From Periconia sp. R9002 (Eukaryota > Ascomycota > Dothideomycetes > Pleosporales > Periconiaceae), in the NCBI GenBank assembly GCA_023627715.1, contig JAMAHW010000231.1, positions 1 to 13,643 on the forward strand: a stretch of DNA of 13,643 nt, written 5' to 3'. Shown here in pieces: positions 1,561-12,800 of this stretch; position 1 is the first letter of the stretch; every line of letters begins with the position of its first letter. The notes beneath the pieces were generated by a model. It did not search any database. It saw only the letters and a list, made by a program, of their open reading frames with translations, and was not told the origin of the DNA. Position numbers and translations under genes: made by a program.

Positions 1561-1958
1561 ATAATAAGGTATTTATTTAACTATTATAGGACTTTCTAAG
1601 TAAGATAATAAAAACTAAGGCCTTATACTATATAGTTTATAAAAATATATTAGTATAAAAAAGAATTAATACTATAAAGTCTATTACTATTTTTAGTAGT
1701 AATATTTTAATTAATTTAATATATATAAAGTTATATATTTACGTTAATTATACTAATATTTATAACTCTATATAGTTACTACTATATAAAAGTTATAAGC
1801 TTTTAGTTATAGTTAACTATTACCTATTCTACTTACTTTTTTTAACCTCTTTTTCTATTAATTACTTTTAGCTTCTACTTTACTACTCTACTTTAGTTAT
1901 CTTAAAAATTTTTTAGATCTACTTAATACTACTACTTACTCTTAACTTTACTTCTAAG

Positions 1959-1994
1959 TCTAGGTCTAGGTTTAGGTTTAGGTTTAGTTCTAGC
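1959..1994. repeat. Hexamer array, 6 units
   Basis: Six diverged 6-bp units: TCTAGG twice, TTTAGG twice, TTTAGT, TCTAGC. The period of six equals two codons, so it probably came from a dipeptide repeat in a coding sequence. The minus strand gives (K/R)P repeats, the plus strand SR-like repeats. It is not a telomere tract: it is short, internal and impure. Confidence 0.8.
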
Positions 1995-2362
1995 TTTAAC
2001 GTTAATATTACCTATATAATAGTATCTATTAGCTCTTTTTATTATATTATATATACTACTAATTATTTATTCTACGCTATATTCTTACTTTTACTAACTT
2101 ATACTTAGCTTTAGTAATATACTTATAACGCCTACCTATTAGTTAGGTAAAGTATTAAATTTATAATAGTATAAATAATTCTTTTAATATTATTTATAAT
2201 TATTAAGTAGTACTTAAAAATATTATTTAGTAGAAAGCTATAGTTTTTACTTTTATATTTACGCTTACGCTCTCACTCTTTAGTTTAAAAAAGTATAAGT
2301 ATTACTAGTAAATTTAAATATATTAATAAGTAGATAATAATATTATTTATTTTATTTATACT

Positions 2363-2398
2363 ACTTATAATACTTATATTACTTATATTACTTATATT
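2363..2398. repeat. 9-bp tandem repeat, 4 units
   Basis: ACTTATAAT followed by three exact copies of ACTTATATT. No function is evident; such arrays are common in mutated AT-rich fungal DNA. Confidence 0.8.
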
Positions 2399-2442
2399 AT
2401 ATATATTTTTATTACTTTTAGATATAATTTATTTAAGTAATA

Positions 2443-2478
<36 letters not shown>
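2443..2478. repeat. (TAG)12 microsatellite
   Basis: Twelve perfect TAG units, with a smaller TAGTAG cluster about 30 bases further on (2506-2518). Under RIP, CpA becomes TpA, so the likely ancestor is (CAG)n, a polyglutamine-type repeat, every unit of which is now a stop codon in that frame. A native (TAG)n or (CTA)n cannot be excluded. Confidence 0.85.
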
Positions 2479-2710
2479 AAAATAGATAAAAAGTAGTATT
2501 TAAGAGTAGTAGTAGTAGAAGCTAAAGTCTACTTACTAGTAGTAGCGCTAACTTTATATACTTCTAAAGACTTCTATAGGTCTACTTAATACTAGCCTAA
2601 GCCTACCTATAAAACTTTTTTAATATTTAATTACTTTTTAATAGGTAGTTATTTATAGGTGTTAAAATATAGTAATATTTACTACTTTTTATAATTTTTT
2701 TTAAGTATAT

Positions 2711-2736
2711 ACGCTAAGCTCTTTAGAGCTTAGCGC
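2711..2736. repeat. Left terminal hairpin
   Basis: CGCTAAGCTCT and AGAGCTTAGCG are exact inverted copies around a TT centre, with ACGC/GCGC outer bases. This is the mutated version of the right terminal hairpin at 5119-5144, differing from it by transitions only. Confidence 0.8.
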
Positions 2737-2892
2737 TTATAGTTATATAATATATTATATAACTATACTTTTACTTTTATACGCTTTTTTCTTATATACT
2801 TTTTATAAATAACTTTTTAACTACTTTTTTACACTAGGCCTAGGTAACCTAGGTAGTTATTACTATTAAAAGTGCCTAATACTTACTTATTA
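2711..2892 (+). repeat. Left TIR of the 2.4-kb element (RIP-mutated arm)
   Basis: Matches the reverse complement of the right TIR. Within the outer 120 bp, nearly every difference is C-to-T or G-to-A in this arm: the CACGTG-type boxes of the right arm appear here only as TATATA-like words (about 2741-2763). Exceptions are about one transversion (near 2738), an indel and some mismatches near 2757-2770. The inner third, with CCTAGG and AAGTGCCTAATACTT words, is nearly identical in both arms. Confidence 0.88.
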
Positions 2893-3343
2893 TAAAAATT
2901 TCTTATTATAAAAGTAACCTTAAATTAGGAAGCTACTTAGTTAGAAAAAATATATTCTAATTAAAATATAGTTAAAAATAAGTAGTAGATTACTTAATTC
3001 TACCCTAAGGTAATTAAAGATAACTACTCTAACCTATAGTACTTATAAACTATAATAGAATTTCTTAGATAGTTAGCCTATTAATTTATATACTCTAAGT
3101 ACCTAGCTAATATTATAATATTTCTTATAATTAGTTATATTAATAAAGTAAAAAAGATAGTTAAATATATATAGAGAATTATTAGTACTAACTTAGTAAA
3201 GGCTAAAAAAATTATTTAGAAATTTAAAAAAAAATCTACTAACTAGCTTTAGTATAAAAAAAATTATAGATAAAAAGTTCTTAGTTATTTAAAATTACTA
3301 TTATAGATAGTAACCTAGTTATACCTATCTAAAAAAAACGTAT

Positions 3344-3760
3344 AGCTAAATACTTAGTAAACTAACTAAAAATAAAGAAATAGTCTAGACTACTAAAAAG
3401 TATAATAGAAAAATATAATTTTACCTTATATAGTCTATTCTACTAGCCTATTAAAATAACTACTTAGTTAAAGCTAAAGTAATTAGCTATAATAAGTATA
3501 GAGACTTCTCTAGAGATAATATAAAAAATTATTAAAAATACTTTACTAAGTTTAACTTTCTACTCCTTTTCTATACCTAAAAAAACTTATTAGAGCTAAG
3601 AAGAAAGTATTATAAGTATTATAAAGTTTATAATATAGGTATAAATTAAATAAAAAAACTAGGCTACTTTAAAATTAACTATAAAGTATAGCTAACTTTT
3701 TTTAGCTACTTTAGAGCTAATTTTTTAGTATATACGTAGAGCTTTTAAAAAAATAAGTAA
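3344..3760 (+). pseudogene. Unidentified coding relic inside the TIR element
   Basis: In the frame starting at 3344 the stops are few and all convertible to Gln or Trp, and the translation is varied and hydrophilic (words such as LTKNKEIV, YNKYRDFSRDNIKNY, KLGYFKINYK). A Tyr-rich run near 3608-3640 (YYKYYKVYN) could be a former Cys/His cluster, since RIP turns Cys TGC/TGT and His CAC/CAT into Tyr codons, but the spacing does not fit a CCHC knuckle cleanly. I do not recognise the family. The neighbouring frames are far more stop-rich. Confidence 0.3.
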
Positions 3761-4569
3761 TACTCTATCTAGTATAGCTAAAGTAGTTACTACTATAAAA
3801 GATTTCTAAAACCTATTTATAAAAGCTAATACTAAAATACTAAAATAGCTTAATATTATAAACTTATATATACTTAGTTAAAAAGTTACTTATAAGTACT
3901 CTAGCCTAAATAGTAATCTTTATTATAAACTTAAAAAATAGTAGAATAAAGTTAAAAAAGTACTATTATATAAAAAAACTATTAAAGTTCTTAATAAGTA
4001 TATATATATAAAAGGATAGATATATTTCTACTATTTAAAAGCTTTTACTTCTATAAGTAGTTTATAGGTAGTATTAATTAATTATAACTAACTTACTTAG
4101 GTGCTCTAAACTATAGTATCTAATATATACTATTTAGTTAAAATATAAAAGAATAGCGCTACCTAAAAGCTCTTCTAGAAGTATATATAAAAAGTAGCTA
4201 AAGTTAGTTATCTAAAAAGCTATTAATTTTTATCTAAAAAGTTATCTCCTACTATTAATTATAACTAAATAATTTATCTATTAAATTTAAAAAGTGTTAG
4301 GTAGTATATAACTAGTTACTTAACTATACTAAGCTTATAGATAGATAATAAAGAAAAATCAGTAAAAAGAGGTATAATAGAAATATATATATAAAAATCA
4401 CTATTAGTTAATTCCTATTCTTACTACTAGTATTAAAAAGGGGCTTATATATTTATATATATATATAAGTTATATAACTATAGCTAGTACTCTATATACT
4501 ACTTAGGTAGTAGCTATATTTTATCCCTTATAATAATATATTAGTATAGTAACTATTATAATACTAGTA

Positions 4570-4890
4570 ACTTTTCTTTTTTAACTTACTACTATACTAC
4601 GCTTCCTTTTTTTTTTAAATTACTATAGTTTTAACTATTATAGTATTATACTTAATCTCTTTATACTTTTTTTTTTATAAGTTTACTACCCTCTCTTCTA
4701 AGGCTACTTATCTATTAAAAATAGTAGTATCCTATTATAAGTAAGTTATTAATAAATTAGGCTCTTTATACGTATACGCTACTTTATTACTTTCTACTAC
4801 TCTATTACTATACGCCTATTTACTTTATTTTTCTACTCTACTTAATACTATATAGGTTTTTTACGCTACCTTAAATATTAATTTTATTTA
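4570..4890 (-). pseudogene. Unidentified minus-strand coding relic in the TIR element
   Basis: Read on the minus strand from about 4890 to 4570, one frame gives a charged, soluble-looking sequence with convertible stops only, including VAYTYKEPNLLITYL and VALEERVVNL words and ending in a Lys/Arg-rich segment (KKKRKRS), which could be a nuclear localisation signal. If real, it points towards the plus-strand relic at 3344-3760, so the element would have carried two convergent genes. The plus strand over the same bases is also fairly open, but reads as a Leu/Tyr/Thr-rich sequence that looks less like a protein. Family not recognised. Confidence 0.3.
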
Positions 4891-5091
4891 TCTCTATATT
4901 ATACTTATTAGTAAAATTAGGCTTTATAGATATATATTAGAGGTTTTTAAGTATATTTAATAAGTAAGTATAAGTATTAGGCACTTTTAATAGTAATAAC
5001 TACCTAGGTTGCCTAGGCCTAGTGCAAAAAAGTGGTTAAAAAGTTGTTTGTAAAAAGTGTGTGGGAAAAAAGCGTCAAGGGTTGGAATGTA

Positions 5092-5113
5092 GTCACGTGA
5101 CATGTCACGTAAC
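5092..5113. promoter_or_regulatory. Paired CACGTG-type boxes in the subterminal TIR
   Basis: GTCACGTGAC (5092-5101) is a perfect 10-bp palindrome with an E-box core (CACGTG). GTCACGTAAC (5104-5113) repeats it with one change, 12 bases on. In the left arm the same sites have been mutated to TATATA words. Known biology: CACGTG is bound by bHLH factors, and subterminal repeats in DNA transposons are often transposase sites. Which applies here is inference. Confidence 0.55.
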
Positions 5114-5118
5114 TGTCG

Positions 5119-5144
5119 GCGCTAAGCTCCGAGGAGCTTAGCGC
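5119..5144. repeat. Right terminal hairpin
   Basis: GCGCTAAGCTCC and GGAGCTTAGCGC form a perfect 12-bp stem around a GA centre, exactly at the outer end of the right TIR. It is the unmutated form of 2711-2736. Confidence 0.85.
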
Positions 5145-5146
5145 GG

Positions 5147-5509
5147 TGTATATTTAAATAGCTACTTATCTATAATATTATTATTAAAAAATATCTTAAA
5201 AGATATTCTATTAAATAAGAAAGTTTAAATTAAAATTATACTTTTAAAATAGGTTATTCTAGTATATATAAAAGAAATATCTATTAGTTTTTTTAATTTA
5301 GTTCTTATTTTTTACTTATTATAGGTTACTCTATTAAGTTATATATAGTTTTTTATTAGATAGTAGTAATTTAATTAAGTAGGATATTAAATTTATTTAG
5401 TTAAAGTTAATTAGTAAGAGAAAGAGAGGTAATTTAATAAAAAGTAGTTATATATATAAGTACCTACTTTTTATTTTAATTTTCTTTTTTTTTATCTTTA
5501 CTATAGACA
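5147..5509 (-). repeat. Possible 3' LTR of the copia element
   Basis: On the minus strand this segment begins TGTCTATAG directly after a purine run (AAAAAAAAAG, 5510-5519) and ends in TATACA next to the TIR element end, so it has TG...CA boundaries and a candidate polypurine tract, on the strand and side expected for the copia 3' end. A TATATATA run near 5450 would suit a U3 promoter. The matching 5' LTR would lie past the window end, so this rests on boundary features alone. The TG/CA ends could be coincidence, especially as 5147-5150 touches the RIP-free island. Confidence 0.3.
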
Positions 5510-6600
5510 CTTTTTTTTTAAATATATATTAGTATCTCTTATTAATCTACTACTTTTCTATTCTACTTTTAACTTTAATCTATTTTTAGCTTTTTAGCTT
5601 TAATTTACTTTAGTTCTTTAGCTTTACTCTATCTTAGCTTTCTATTTTAGCTTTTTAACTAAGTTTATTAGGTAAGTATTATTTTTTAAATATATTTTCT
5701 ATTCTAAGTTCTAACTATTATTACTTATATAGGATACTTATTCTACTTTTTAGTAGTCTACCTCTAAATAGCCTACTCTTAATAACTATTTTATATATAG
5801 TATATAAGTAGTTTAAGCGTTATATAGATCTAAGTATTTTTATATAAATTTAGTTTAGTACTATCTAAAGTCTACTAGTTACTATTAAAGCTAGTAGCGC
5901 TAATATTAGTATTTAGTTTAAGTCTACTAAAGTAGGTTTTCTTTTATACTTCTAATAATTCCTATTACTTATATATTTATATTATACCTATTTTATTATA
6001 AAACTTTTTAATTCTAATAGCTATATAAGGTATAGAGTAGTATATAGTTAAAGCTTTCTATAGTATTTACTAGTTCTAGCTTATATATTAAAGTCTTAAT
6101 TAGATTATTACTAATATTAAGTAGTAGGCTATTAAAATTATTTATAAGCTATACTATATTAAAGCTATTTTTATTTAGTTTATAAGTTAGCTTTAAAAGC
6201 TACGCGATTACTATAAATAATACTATAATAAAAATAAATACTTTTTTAGTTCTACTAGTTATATAAGAAACTTTAAAATTAAAAGTAGAGCTTATACTAC
6301 TTATATCTAGAACTATTATCTTTACTCTATTTAAAACTTTTAAGTAGGTTAGTTACTATAGTTTAGTTAGTCTATTACTATAGGTTAGTCTTATTCTAGA
6401 AGTAGTATTAGGCCTATAGGCCTTTATTTTATTTTTTTTATAAGAGCTAGCTAAGCTAATACTTTTTAGAGCTATAATAAGACTTTCTTTACTCTTTTCT
6501 ACTTTTTATATTTTAAATCTATAATACTTTTATAATAATTTTATTCTATACTTATAGTAGTAGTTTTTTAGCTAATATATTAGCTATATATATAGCTAGC
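5510..6600. other. RIP-mutated 3' region of the copia element
   Basis: About 1.1 kb between the end of the copia polyprotein and the candidate LTR. No domain was recognised. Near 5545-5690 the minus strand is a low-complexity run of AAAGCTA-type words reading as Lys/Gln/Ala/Leu-rich sequence, perhaps a coiled-coil relic. The length is long for a simple copia 3' UTR, so an extra mutated gene or a further insertion may be hidden here. Confidence 0.45.
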
Positions 6601-7086
6601 TAAATCTTTATTAGATTTCTACTTTAGGTTTTTTTTTCTATAAATACTTCTACCTTAATTCTTAGTATATTAGTTAAAATAAGTTATACTAGAGCTTAGT
6701 TTAGTATATATTTTATAAAGGCGTCTACTAAATTTTTTTTTTATTAATCTAATAAATTTTTATAACTTTTTTATTCTAGTATAACTAGTAGAGCGCTATA
6801 ATATTAATTATTAAGTATTTCTCTATTATTATTTTTAGCTTAACTAAATAGTTATATAGTAAGTATAAATTAGTATATATAATAAGTAGGATATTTTTAA
6901 ATAATAGTATTTACGTAATCTAGTTTAGCGTTATACTAAGCGCAATTATACTATTAAATCTACCTACTATTCTATATAGTTTACTAGTAAGTATACTATA
7001 CGTTACCTATTTATACTTAATAGAGTTCTAATAAATAATATTTCTTTTAATTTTAAAGCTTTCTCCTTTTTCTATTTATTTTTTAG
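6600..7086 (-). pseudogene. Copia polyprotein relic, C-terminal part (RNase H)
   Basis: The minus-strand frame carries the second half of a Ty1/copia RNase H. In order from 7081 downward: GNIIYW-like (7020s), SIKYKxVT for the STKCKRVTRS strand, LTSKLYRIVG for the LASExYGxVxG helix, then IYTNLYLLYNYLVKL for the TDSxSLYxxLVKL segment with its catalytic Asp mutated to Asn, and LVDAFIKY for PADAxTK near 6711-6730. The last motif is offset by one base from the upstream frame at a T10 run (A10 on the coding strand, 6733-6742), so a frameshift adds to the stop codons. The fragment is the direct continuation of the relic at 9875-13643 and is separated from it by the inserted LTR element. Confidence 0.85.
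7082..7086. repeat. Target-site duplication, 5' copy (TTTAG)
   Basis: TTTAG lies immediately before the 5' LTR and is repeated exactly at 9875-9879 immediately after the 3' LTR. Five bases is the size typical of LTR retrotransposon integrases. Confidence 0.9.
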
Positions 7087-7260
7087 TGTTATAGAGTAGT
7101 ACTAAGACTCTAGTGCATAAGCTACCTAGCGCAGAACAACTATTATTCTAGCCCCCTATTACCTATATAGCACCTAGTTTTTTTTACTTACTTAGCTCCT
7201 TAGTTTAAAATCTTACTATATTAGCCTTTATAACTAATACCTCTACTTATAACTTTTACA
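7087..7260 (+). repeat. 5' LTR (174 bp)
   Basis: Starts TGTTATAGAG and ends CTTTTACA. It is exactly as long as the 3' LTR and about 88% identical (roughly 20 differences, all C/T or G/A transitions). The most conserved block is GAACAACTATTATTCTAGCC and the CCCTATTACC that follows (7134-7163). A TATATAG word (7164-7170) lies beside it. Confidence 0.92.
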
Positions 7261-9697: not shown

Positions 9698-9700
9698 TAG

Positions 9701-9874
9701 TATTACAGAGTAGTGCTAAGACCCTAGTATATAGGCTACCTAGCGCGGAACAACTATTATTCTAGCCCCCTATTACCTATATAGCACCTAGTTTCTTCTA
9801 CCTATCTAGCTCTTTAGTCTAAAATCTCACTATATTAGCCCTTATAACTAATACCCCTACTTATAACCCTTACA
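9701..9874 (+). repeat. 3' LTR (174 bp)
   Basis: Direct repeat of 7087-7260. It begins TATTACAGAG, where the 5' copy has TGTTATAGAG, so each copy has lost a different ancestral base, and ends CCCTTACA. It keeps more C residues in its second half than the 5' copy. Confidence 0.92.
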
Positions 9875-9879: not shown

Positions 9880-12800
9880 TTACTAAAATAACTAGAAATT
9901 TAAGCTAAAAAGATAAGTCTTTATTATTAATAAATAAACTATTAGTAAAAATAAATAGCTTTATTTTATATAAATTAAAAAGAATAAATATTAAGCTATA
10001 CGCTATATTTTCTATTTACTATTTAAAATACTTATTTAATAATTCTATATCTTTTTTAGTTAGTTCTATTATTTATATAGCTATAGATAGCGTAAATATT
10101 ACTTTTAGCTAATAGACTAAAGTAATATACGTGCTACGTACTTTCTACCTTCTATAAGTATCTACTATTCTTAAATTATTTAGTTAAATTATTACTAGTT
10201 TTGCGCTCTATCCTTTTTATATAAAAGTAATACTTTTACTATTTATAGTAACTTTCTTTCTATTAAATTTAATAAGCTAGTTTTTCATAAAAATAGTTTT
10301 TAGCTTTATATAGAGCTTTACTTTTTCTAATTTATTATTTTTATATTTTAAAAATACTTCTATAACTACGCTAATAGTATTATTAATTTATATTTCTATA
10401 ATTCTAAATATTTTATATTCTTTATTTATAATTAATAAGTATAAGTTATAAGATAAGACCCTTATTTTTAACCTATCTATATAGTAGCTATAGTAGGTAA
10501 TATACTAGTATAGGCTAAATTCTACTATACTATATAGTAGTTTTATAATTTAAATAATTATATTTTAAAAGAATAGGTATATAAGTTCTTTTAGTAGCTA
10601 TATATATAGTATTTAGTCTGGTTTATCCTTAGATTAGATATATACTTATATAATATCTCTAAATTCTATAAATATATTTTAGTTTTTTATTAGAGATAGC
10701 GCTAAAGTAAGTAGTAGCTTTTAGCTTATTTTTTATATTATAGAGAACTAGGTAAAGATTTCCTATTTTTCTTTATTAGAGTATCTTATAAAAACTAGTT
10801 ATATCTTTTTATATAGTTTTATACTAAGTCTTTTAATTTTATAGATAGTTTTAAGCTTAAAGATTTAGCTCTAATAAGTTTTAAAATTATATTACTATAT
10901 TTTAAATATACTATTTTTAAAAAAAGTATTAAATTTAGCTTTATTTAATTACTTAAAAAGCTTACTTAGTATTATAATAACTCTTTTTACTTAGAGTTCT
11001 AGTACTAGTTTATATATATTTTATTCTTTCTATATAAGAAAAATAGTATTTATCTAGGCTAGTTAAAATCTTTAAAGCTTACTACGCCCTTTTTTTTAGA
11101 TATTTTAAAGTTTTAGTATAGTATTAATCTTTTTAGCTATTTTATCTACCTAAATTTAGAAAATTTTTAGTAGATAGCTCTATCTATAGTTAACTTTTAG
11201 TAGATAGTCTAGTTTAATCTTTTCTACTATATTATCTTTCTAGTTTTAGAAAGTTTTTAGTAGATAGCTCTATTTATAAGTAACTTTAGGTAGATAATCT
11301 AGTTTTTAGTAGCTATTTATATTTTTAGCTATTACTTTAGGCTTTAAAAGGTAGTAATATAGTTTAACTTATATATACCTAAATTATATAAGGCTATTCT
11401 CTCCTTTAATAGTTATATTATAGTTATTTATAGCTTTAAAAATATATAAACCTATCTATCTCTTTTTTTTACGCTATACTAAGACTTTTATACTAATAGG
11501 TAGTCTAAATATATTACTAGTTACTAAGCTATTTTTTATATTTAATACTCTATTTACTTCTTACTTTACTTTTTTTTTAGCTAGTAACTATATTACTTTA
11601 TTAATTACTTTTACTTTAGTAACTATATCTAGTATTAGTAAAGATTTATTATTAATATATAGGTATATACTAAATATAAGTAGAGTTAGTACTAAGCTAT
11701 TTAGCCCTACTATATTATTAAAAGCTTTAATAGCTATCTATAAAATATTCTTATTACTTATTACTAGTAGCTCTACTTATAAAATATTATAGGTATACTA
11801 TAAGGGTGCGTATATATACTCTACCTTACTAATTACTTAGTAAGCTTCTACTAGTATTTTCTAGTAGTAAATACCTATAGTTTATATATATCTTTTAAAT
11901 TCTTCTAATATAAAGTTTATTCCTAGGTTATATATAATTTTATTTAGTAGGCCTTAATATATATTAATCTAGTAGTAGTAGAGCGCTTTCTAAGTATATT
12001 ATATTAATACACTTTTTAGAAAAGTTACTACTTAAAAAGATATATCTACGTTAATAATATATAGTATATCTTTTCTACTAATTTTTACTATATTAATAAT
12101 TACTTTATAGTTAAAGTTCTTTTAGTTTTTAATAGAAAATTTAAATTAGTAGGGCGCTTAGCTATATATTTAGTAGTAGTAGTAAAATTTCTAGATTTCT
12201 TTTAGTACTTTTAATTTAACTTTATAGCTAGCGTTAGTAAAAAGTTTATATAGCTTATTTACTTAGAGATACCTAAAGTAGTAATAGATTTATTAAAGTT
12301 CCTCTTTTATAAAGTAGTTTACTACTTTACTTTTACTAATATTAAAAAATAAGTATCTCTATTTCTTTACTATAGGGATTTCTTTACTATCTTTTTATAT
12401 AATAATATTCTATACGTTATTAAAGAAGGCTCCTAATCTATTAGTATTATAAATACTAAATAAAAATAAAGTATTAATATTAAAGATATAGTATACTACC
12501 TTACTTAGTAAGTTCTTAATTATAGCTATTTCTAGTAGGCTAATTAGTTTTTAACTACTAAAGTTAATATTATTTATACTAGGTATTTAATTAATTTTTA
12601 TAGTAGAGTTTTCTTATAAGTATACTTTAAGTTATAGTTTTCTAATAGTTAATATAGTAGCTACGCCTATATTCTATAATTTACTTTAGTACTTTTAGCT
12701 ATATTAATTTTTTAGTATAAATTAGTTTACTAAGGTTAGTATTTCTTATATAAAGATATCTTTACCTATTAATTAGTATATAAAAGCGTTATTTATTAAG

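Follow-up and report, generated by a model that had tools for sequence, protein, structure and literature searches.

How does a short piece of DNA that keeps its CA and TG dinucleotides come to lie in a contig from which these dinucleotides have otherwise almost disappeared? The window, by which we mean the whole stretch of DNA analysed, is a complete contig of 13,643 bp (C231), consisting largely of repeats, in an assembly of 42.9 Mb and 267 contigs, whose size, together with the RIP-type composition, points to a fungus. Outside the patch the G+C content is 21%, the TA/AT ratio 1.87, and the (CA+TG)/(AC+GT) ratio 0.05. CpA is the depleted dinucleotide outside the insertion described below, with 61 CA on both strands together against 2280 CT, 306 CC, and 192 CG. 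An earlier note on this DNA had proposed that the patch is one arm of a TIR pair and that this arm escaped RIP while its partner was mutated. Our analysis leads to a different origin, which very probably is the late arrival of a truncated retroposon.

The interval first marked as clean, 5008 to 5150, holds 19 of the 81 CA/TG dinucleotides of the window, and the maximum in any other 143-bp stretch away from the patch is 6. The clean DNA actually extends from 4961 to 5147. Within these 187 bp there are 19 CA/TG where 0.84 would be expected from the remaining window (binomial tail 6e-20), so that the earlier observation of a clean patch inside RIP-type DNA is borne out. The segment from 4961 to 5007 has a single CA/TG, at position 4982; since this site is also kept in the left copy, the segment is uninformative on the RIP state.

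The two copies differ in a very particular way. Over 181 aligned bases, 29 of the 32 differences between right and left copy are C-to-T or G-to-A changes, the others being one reverse transition and two transversions; thus, the statement that the arms differ almost only by such changes in the left one holds. In a longer global alignment, running beyond the shared part, 30 of 41 substitutions are of this type. Given this direction of change and the strong preference for CpA, we infer that the mutator of the AT-rich DNA in the window is RIP. The residual CA outside 4951–5148 (both strands, n = 61) comprise 34 CAC, 11 CAT, 11 CAA, and 5 CAG. The predominance of CAC among the survivors may reflect a sequence-context preference of the mutator, the CAC share being taken without an unmutated baseline.

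What, then, are the two copies? They are oppositely oriented, and their constant ends, at about 2887 and at 4961, face each other, with homology extending outwards. A TIR DNA transposon was therefore rejected, as the conserved ends point inwards instead of marking the outer limits of a single element. Insertion of both arms as one unit was likewise rejected, because only the right copy has a duplication at its borders and only this copy is missing from C94, a contig with a paralogous stretch of host DNA. Against a single-unit insertion there is also the homology to C234, which borders the left copy separately, resuming at 2888, next to its constant end. The stretch between the copies consists of other RIP-mutated repeats; it is not a transposon body framed by arms. 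The supposed arms are independent truncated retroposon copies, of which the right one has its own duplication and empty site. The features are collected in the table.

Table. Features of the two retroposon copies and their surroundings; positions are those of the window.
Feature	Position	Strand	Basis or remark
Clean retroposon insertion, 187 bp	4961..5147	- (inferred RNA sense)	Family alignment, flanking duplication, empty site in C94, CA/TG excess
Target-site duplication, left	4951..4960	.	GTATATTTAA; significance depends on the empty site
Target-site duplication, right	5148..5157	.	GTATATTTAA; perfect 10-bp match to 4951-4960
Perfect hairpin, GCGCTAAGCTCC-GA-GGAGCTTAGCGC	5119..5144	.	Inside the insertion, beside the truncated end; present in other family copies
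Left "arm": constant end of a longer RIP-mutated family copy (constant end at the 2887 side)	1607..2887	+	Alignments; TA at 16/19 compared CA/TG sites
Host DNA between the copies	2888..4950	.	Partial matches to C234, C94, C134, C24, C13

The left copy is collinear with the long copies C249 and C25 as far as about 1605–1628. Its length is about 1.3 kb or more, a figure that gives the extent over which it matches such copies. A BLAST comparison of C234 with the window gave no 5′ boundary for it, and a search for a duplication around it turned up nothing convincing, with 12 near-matches where 6.6 would be expected in the window.

The right copy carries the argument. Read on the minus strand, it has the tail TACTTATACTTACTTA, at the 4961 end, and the 187-bp copy is apparently 5′-truncated. 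The flanking duplication is not conclusive alone, because in AT-rich DNA 2 of 33 mismatched pairings do as well as the 10-bp match of the window. Indeed, the 10-mer is not rare, occurring three times in the window (the third at 10902–10911) against 1.15 times expected by chance. It is the empty site in C94, more than the duplication, that carries the case for insertion. C94 shares the host repeat, with window 4843–4960 and 5151–6484 matching C94 11818–11702 and 11708–10357. When the insertion and one copy of the duplication are removed, the joined flanks give an alignment of 379 columns with C94, in which there are 32 substitutions; the junction is ungapped, and two single-base gaps lie elsewhere. 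C94 is the empty site of the right copy, that is, paralogous host DNA without the insertion. At three positions, both copies of the duplication have a base that departs from C94 in the direction of RIP. This is a hint that mutation of the target preceded its duplication, though a weak one, because C94 and the window differ both ways (17 versus 12 transitions). The earlier note had also considered a new terminal insertion. A new insertion it is, but of a whole element and not of a new terminus, as the duplication and the empty site indicate.

Matches to the patch are found at no fewer than 20 places in the genome, including the patch itself. Among the own-genome matches listed, the closest have 72–97% identity to all or part of the patch, and none is identical. 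In the family alignment of 36 rows, the copies share a constant end, TAAGTATTAGGCACTTTT..., preceded by TAAGTA or TAAG units of variable number; only C145b and C184 are without a recognisable constant end. The other end varies from copy to copy, so that a constant tailed 3′ end is combined with variable 5′ truncation. In C43 (L009 around 4860–4945), the family hairpin is split at the loop by about 75 extra bases, and C212 has a shorter extra piece there.

Flanking duplications were sought by matching the left flank of each copy against the right side of that copy and of all the others, which gave 33 mismatched pairings for each of 34 copies (C145b and C184, 2 of the 36 rows, were dropped, and the C43 flank had only 17 bases). 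The match of a copy's own flanks was above all 33 mismatched pairings in 7 of the 34 copies, namely C2, C15, C33, C91, C28, C40c, and C40a. It was equalled or beaten by one of 33 in C145a, C232, and C135, and by two in the window copy; for the remaining 23, it was equalled or beaten by more, and no duplication was established within the stretch compared. Beyond that stretch, an exact 14-bp duplication flanks the 356-bp copy C9 and an 11-bp duplication flanks C39. For C43, there was no convincing duplication, and the search returned only the C43 flank itself. A test with a shorter left flank gave scores of at least 9 in 7 of 21 copies against 3.3% of 420 mismatched pairs, although it missed known cases, including that of the window itself (score 5). 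A constant tailed end, variable truncation, and duplications of 10–14 bp are hallmarks of target-primed reverse transcription. With target-site duplications of variable length, the anatomy of the copies points to a family of LINE/SINE-type retroposons, and the RNA sense of such a target-primed retroposon would be the minus strand in the window.

The mutational state of the family was scored by counting TA where the window copy has CA/TG; as the reference, that copy has 0/20 TA. Half of the aligned rows, 18 of 36, have TA at at least 10 compared CA/TG sites. The "heavy" (17) and "light" (13) rows were chosen from these TA counts, and C39, C232, C184, C145b, and C2 are in neither group; counts within a group are thus descriptive and not a test. 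In the heavy rows, TA is read 17 times at 5010, 11 at 5023, 17 at 5045, 15 at 5049, and 17 at 5060. The short copies in AT-rich surroundings are graded, with TA at 3/12 sites in C33, 4/11 in C232, 13/18 in C68a, and 6/7 in C57, part of these counts being subfamily differences and not RIP, as some sites vary among clean copies too. The C33 insertion (L011 4930–5053), nearly clean, of the same subfamily, and with a 12-bp duplication, is the closest relative of the window copy over a comparable length: 108 columns are identical and 2 different, both RIP-type, and a third RIP-type difference lies just beyond the 110 columns compared. Its surroundings are also AT-rich and RIP-type (G+C about 0.23–0.24), and a reverse-transcriptase remnant carrying 12 stops lies some 1.1 kb away. 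The C43 copy, at least about 670 bp in length, is mostly clean and lies in DNA of normal G+C.

We consider it very probable that the 187-bp fragment is a truncated retroposon that landed by target-primed reverse transcription in an already RIP-saturated block, and that it is clean by being younger than its neighbourhood and, probably, also by being of sub-RIP length. A transcript of the family would have been reverse-transcribed at a nicked target, and the product would be a 5′-truncated copy with a short repeat tail, set between the two copies of a 10-bp target-site duplication. The landing place would have been a repeat block previously saturated by RIP. The copy would then have retained its CA/TG sites for being younger than the mutation around it, and probably also for lying below the duplication length that RIP requires. 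The insertion boundaries, the duplication, the empty site, the family anatomy, and the RIP-type state of both copies are observed here, and parsimony favours RIP first and insertion second as the order of events. The graded states of the short copies would fit arrival at different times relative to RIP; they also fit the literature, in which RIP is weak on short repeats.

That weakness is the basis of the alternative that survives best, namely, that the insertion is older than the surrounding RIP and was spared solely because 187 bp is less than the length that RIP recognises. By the published thresholds, RIP has almost no impact below about 200 bp (PMC9970103) and typically acts above 400 bp (PMC4522978), and it is in keeping with them that the long left copy has been mutated but the short right one has not. 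However, the short copies in AT-rich DNA (C33, C232, C68a, C57) are mutated to varying degree and so are not immune, even if RIP spillover from neighbouring repeats could account for their mutations. Size cannot be the sole reason, because C57 and C68a are short yet mutated, and C43, several times longer than the window copy, is mostly clean. We therefore regard sparing by size alone as unlikely.

Far less probable is gene conversion, in which a clean donor would have replaced some 140 bp of a RIP-mutated arm, as the earlier note had suggested. Clean family copies do exist elsewhere in the genome, but the family is absent from the corresponding place in C94, the paralogous locus, the clean DNA takes up the space from one duplication copy to the other, and no identical donor is among the matches listed. 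Hardly more credible is an assembly chimera joining clean and mutated sequence; the window, as a complete small contig largely of repeats, is where a misjoin might be feared, but C94 has the two flanks as a single uninterrupted stretch, and a misjoin would not be expected to duplicate the target site. Protection of one end of a TIR transposon from RIP can practically be dismissed: 14 of the 17 heavy rows do retain the CA at 4982, but this site is a CAC, the context of 34 among the 61 CA that survive outside the insertion (again without an unmutated baseline), the inward-facing constant ends leave no TIR pair, the same end is mutated in the 18 rows with TA at 10 or more sites, so that protection is not general, and the 36 rows do not show a clean tip shared by many RIP-mutated copies. 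Neither gene conversion nor protection of an end has to be invoked to explain the patch.

Which enzyme could have mobilised the family? None of the reverse transcriptases at 73 RVT_1 places in the genome could be assigned to it, and by reading of the list none of the 73 is in C231. A reverse-transcriptase gene lies beside the C43 copy (L009 1037–3414, minus strand) as an open frame in GC-normal DNA, with an RVT_1 E of 1.9e-26. It was rejected as the family enzyme, since its strand is opposite to the inferred sense and it has no close own-genome copy, its three other own-genome matches being 26–29% identical. A LINE found on C175 (L043) and C14 (L044) ends in a CA-repeat tail and contains long open frames, that on C175 being of 1271 aa; its copies are apparently not RIP-mutated. 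By eye, its 3′ end is unrelated to that of the family, and its tail is different; it is not an evident source. Rfam gave no family match in the window, L012, or L009.

Fungal Tad1-like LINEs make 5′-truncated insertions by target-primed reverse transcription. The present family resembles them in its constant tailed end, in the variable truncation of the other end, and in its duplications of 10–14 bp, but differs in that no reverse transcriptase was found linked to it among the 73 RVT_1 places. The tRNA-related SINEs of Aspergillus fumigatus, described with target-site duplications of 4–14 bp (PMC5063351), are likewise short insertions with short duplications; in contrast, copies here reach about 1.3 kb, and the Rfam searches just mentioned gave no match. 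In Zymoseptoria tritici, MITEs, which are short non-autonomous elements, are reported to escape RIP (PMC9970103). The likeness is in short repeat copies with little RIP signature; unlike MITEs, which have TIRs, the copy here has no TIR pair and lies within a RIP-type block.

The window has other repeats as well. Positions 7084–7260 and 9698–9874 form a 177-nt direct repeat, 89% identical and in an LTR-like arrangement; the stretch that it brackets is less AT-rich (G+C about 0.2–0.36 in 200-bp windows), and a G run precedes the right repeat copy. Positions 1–821 belong to a high-copy repeat: among the matches listed, many span 1–821 and others about 361–821 only, a pattern that a long element together with its solo LTR would give.

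The patch is real, and its origin is ordinary: a truncated copy of a retroposon, still young, in DNA mutated by RIP. It removes an apparent exception to RIP, as no arm was spared or repaired. The insertion is useful mainly as a time marker. If such insertions were used as a series, those that can be dated could order RIP episodes against transposition, and they could show whether small copies in RIP-mutated blocks stay clean. It is tempting, but doubtful, to go further and propose that the family keeps seeding RIP-mutated blocks and persists via copies too short for RIP. If that were true, the TA grades of the short copies, from 0/20 in the window to 6/7 in C57, would record successive RIP episodes like an internal clock.
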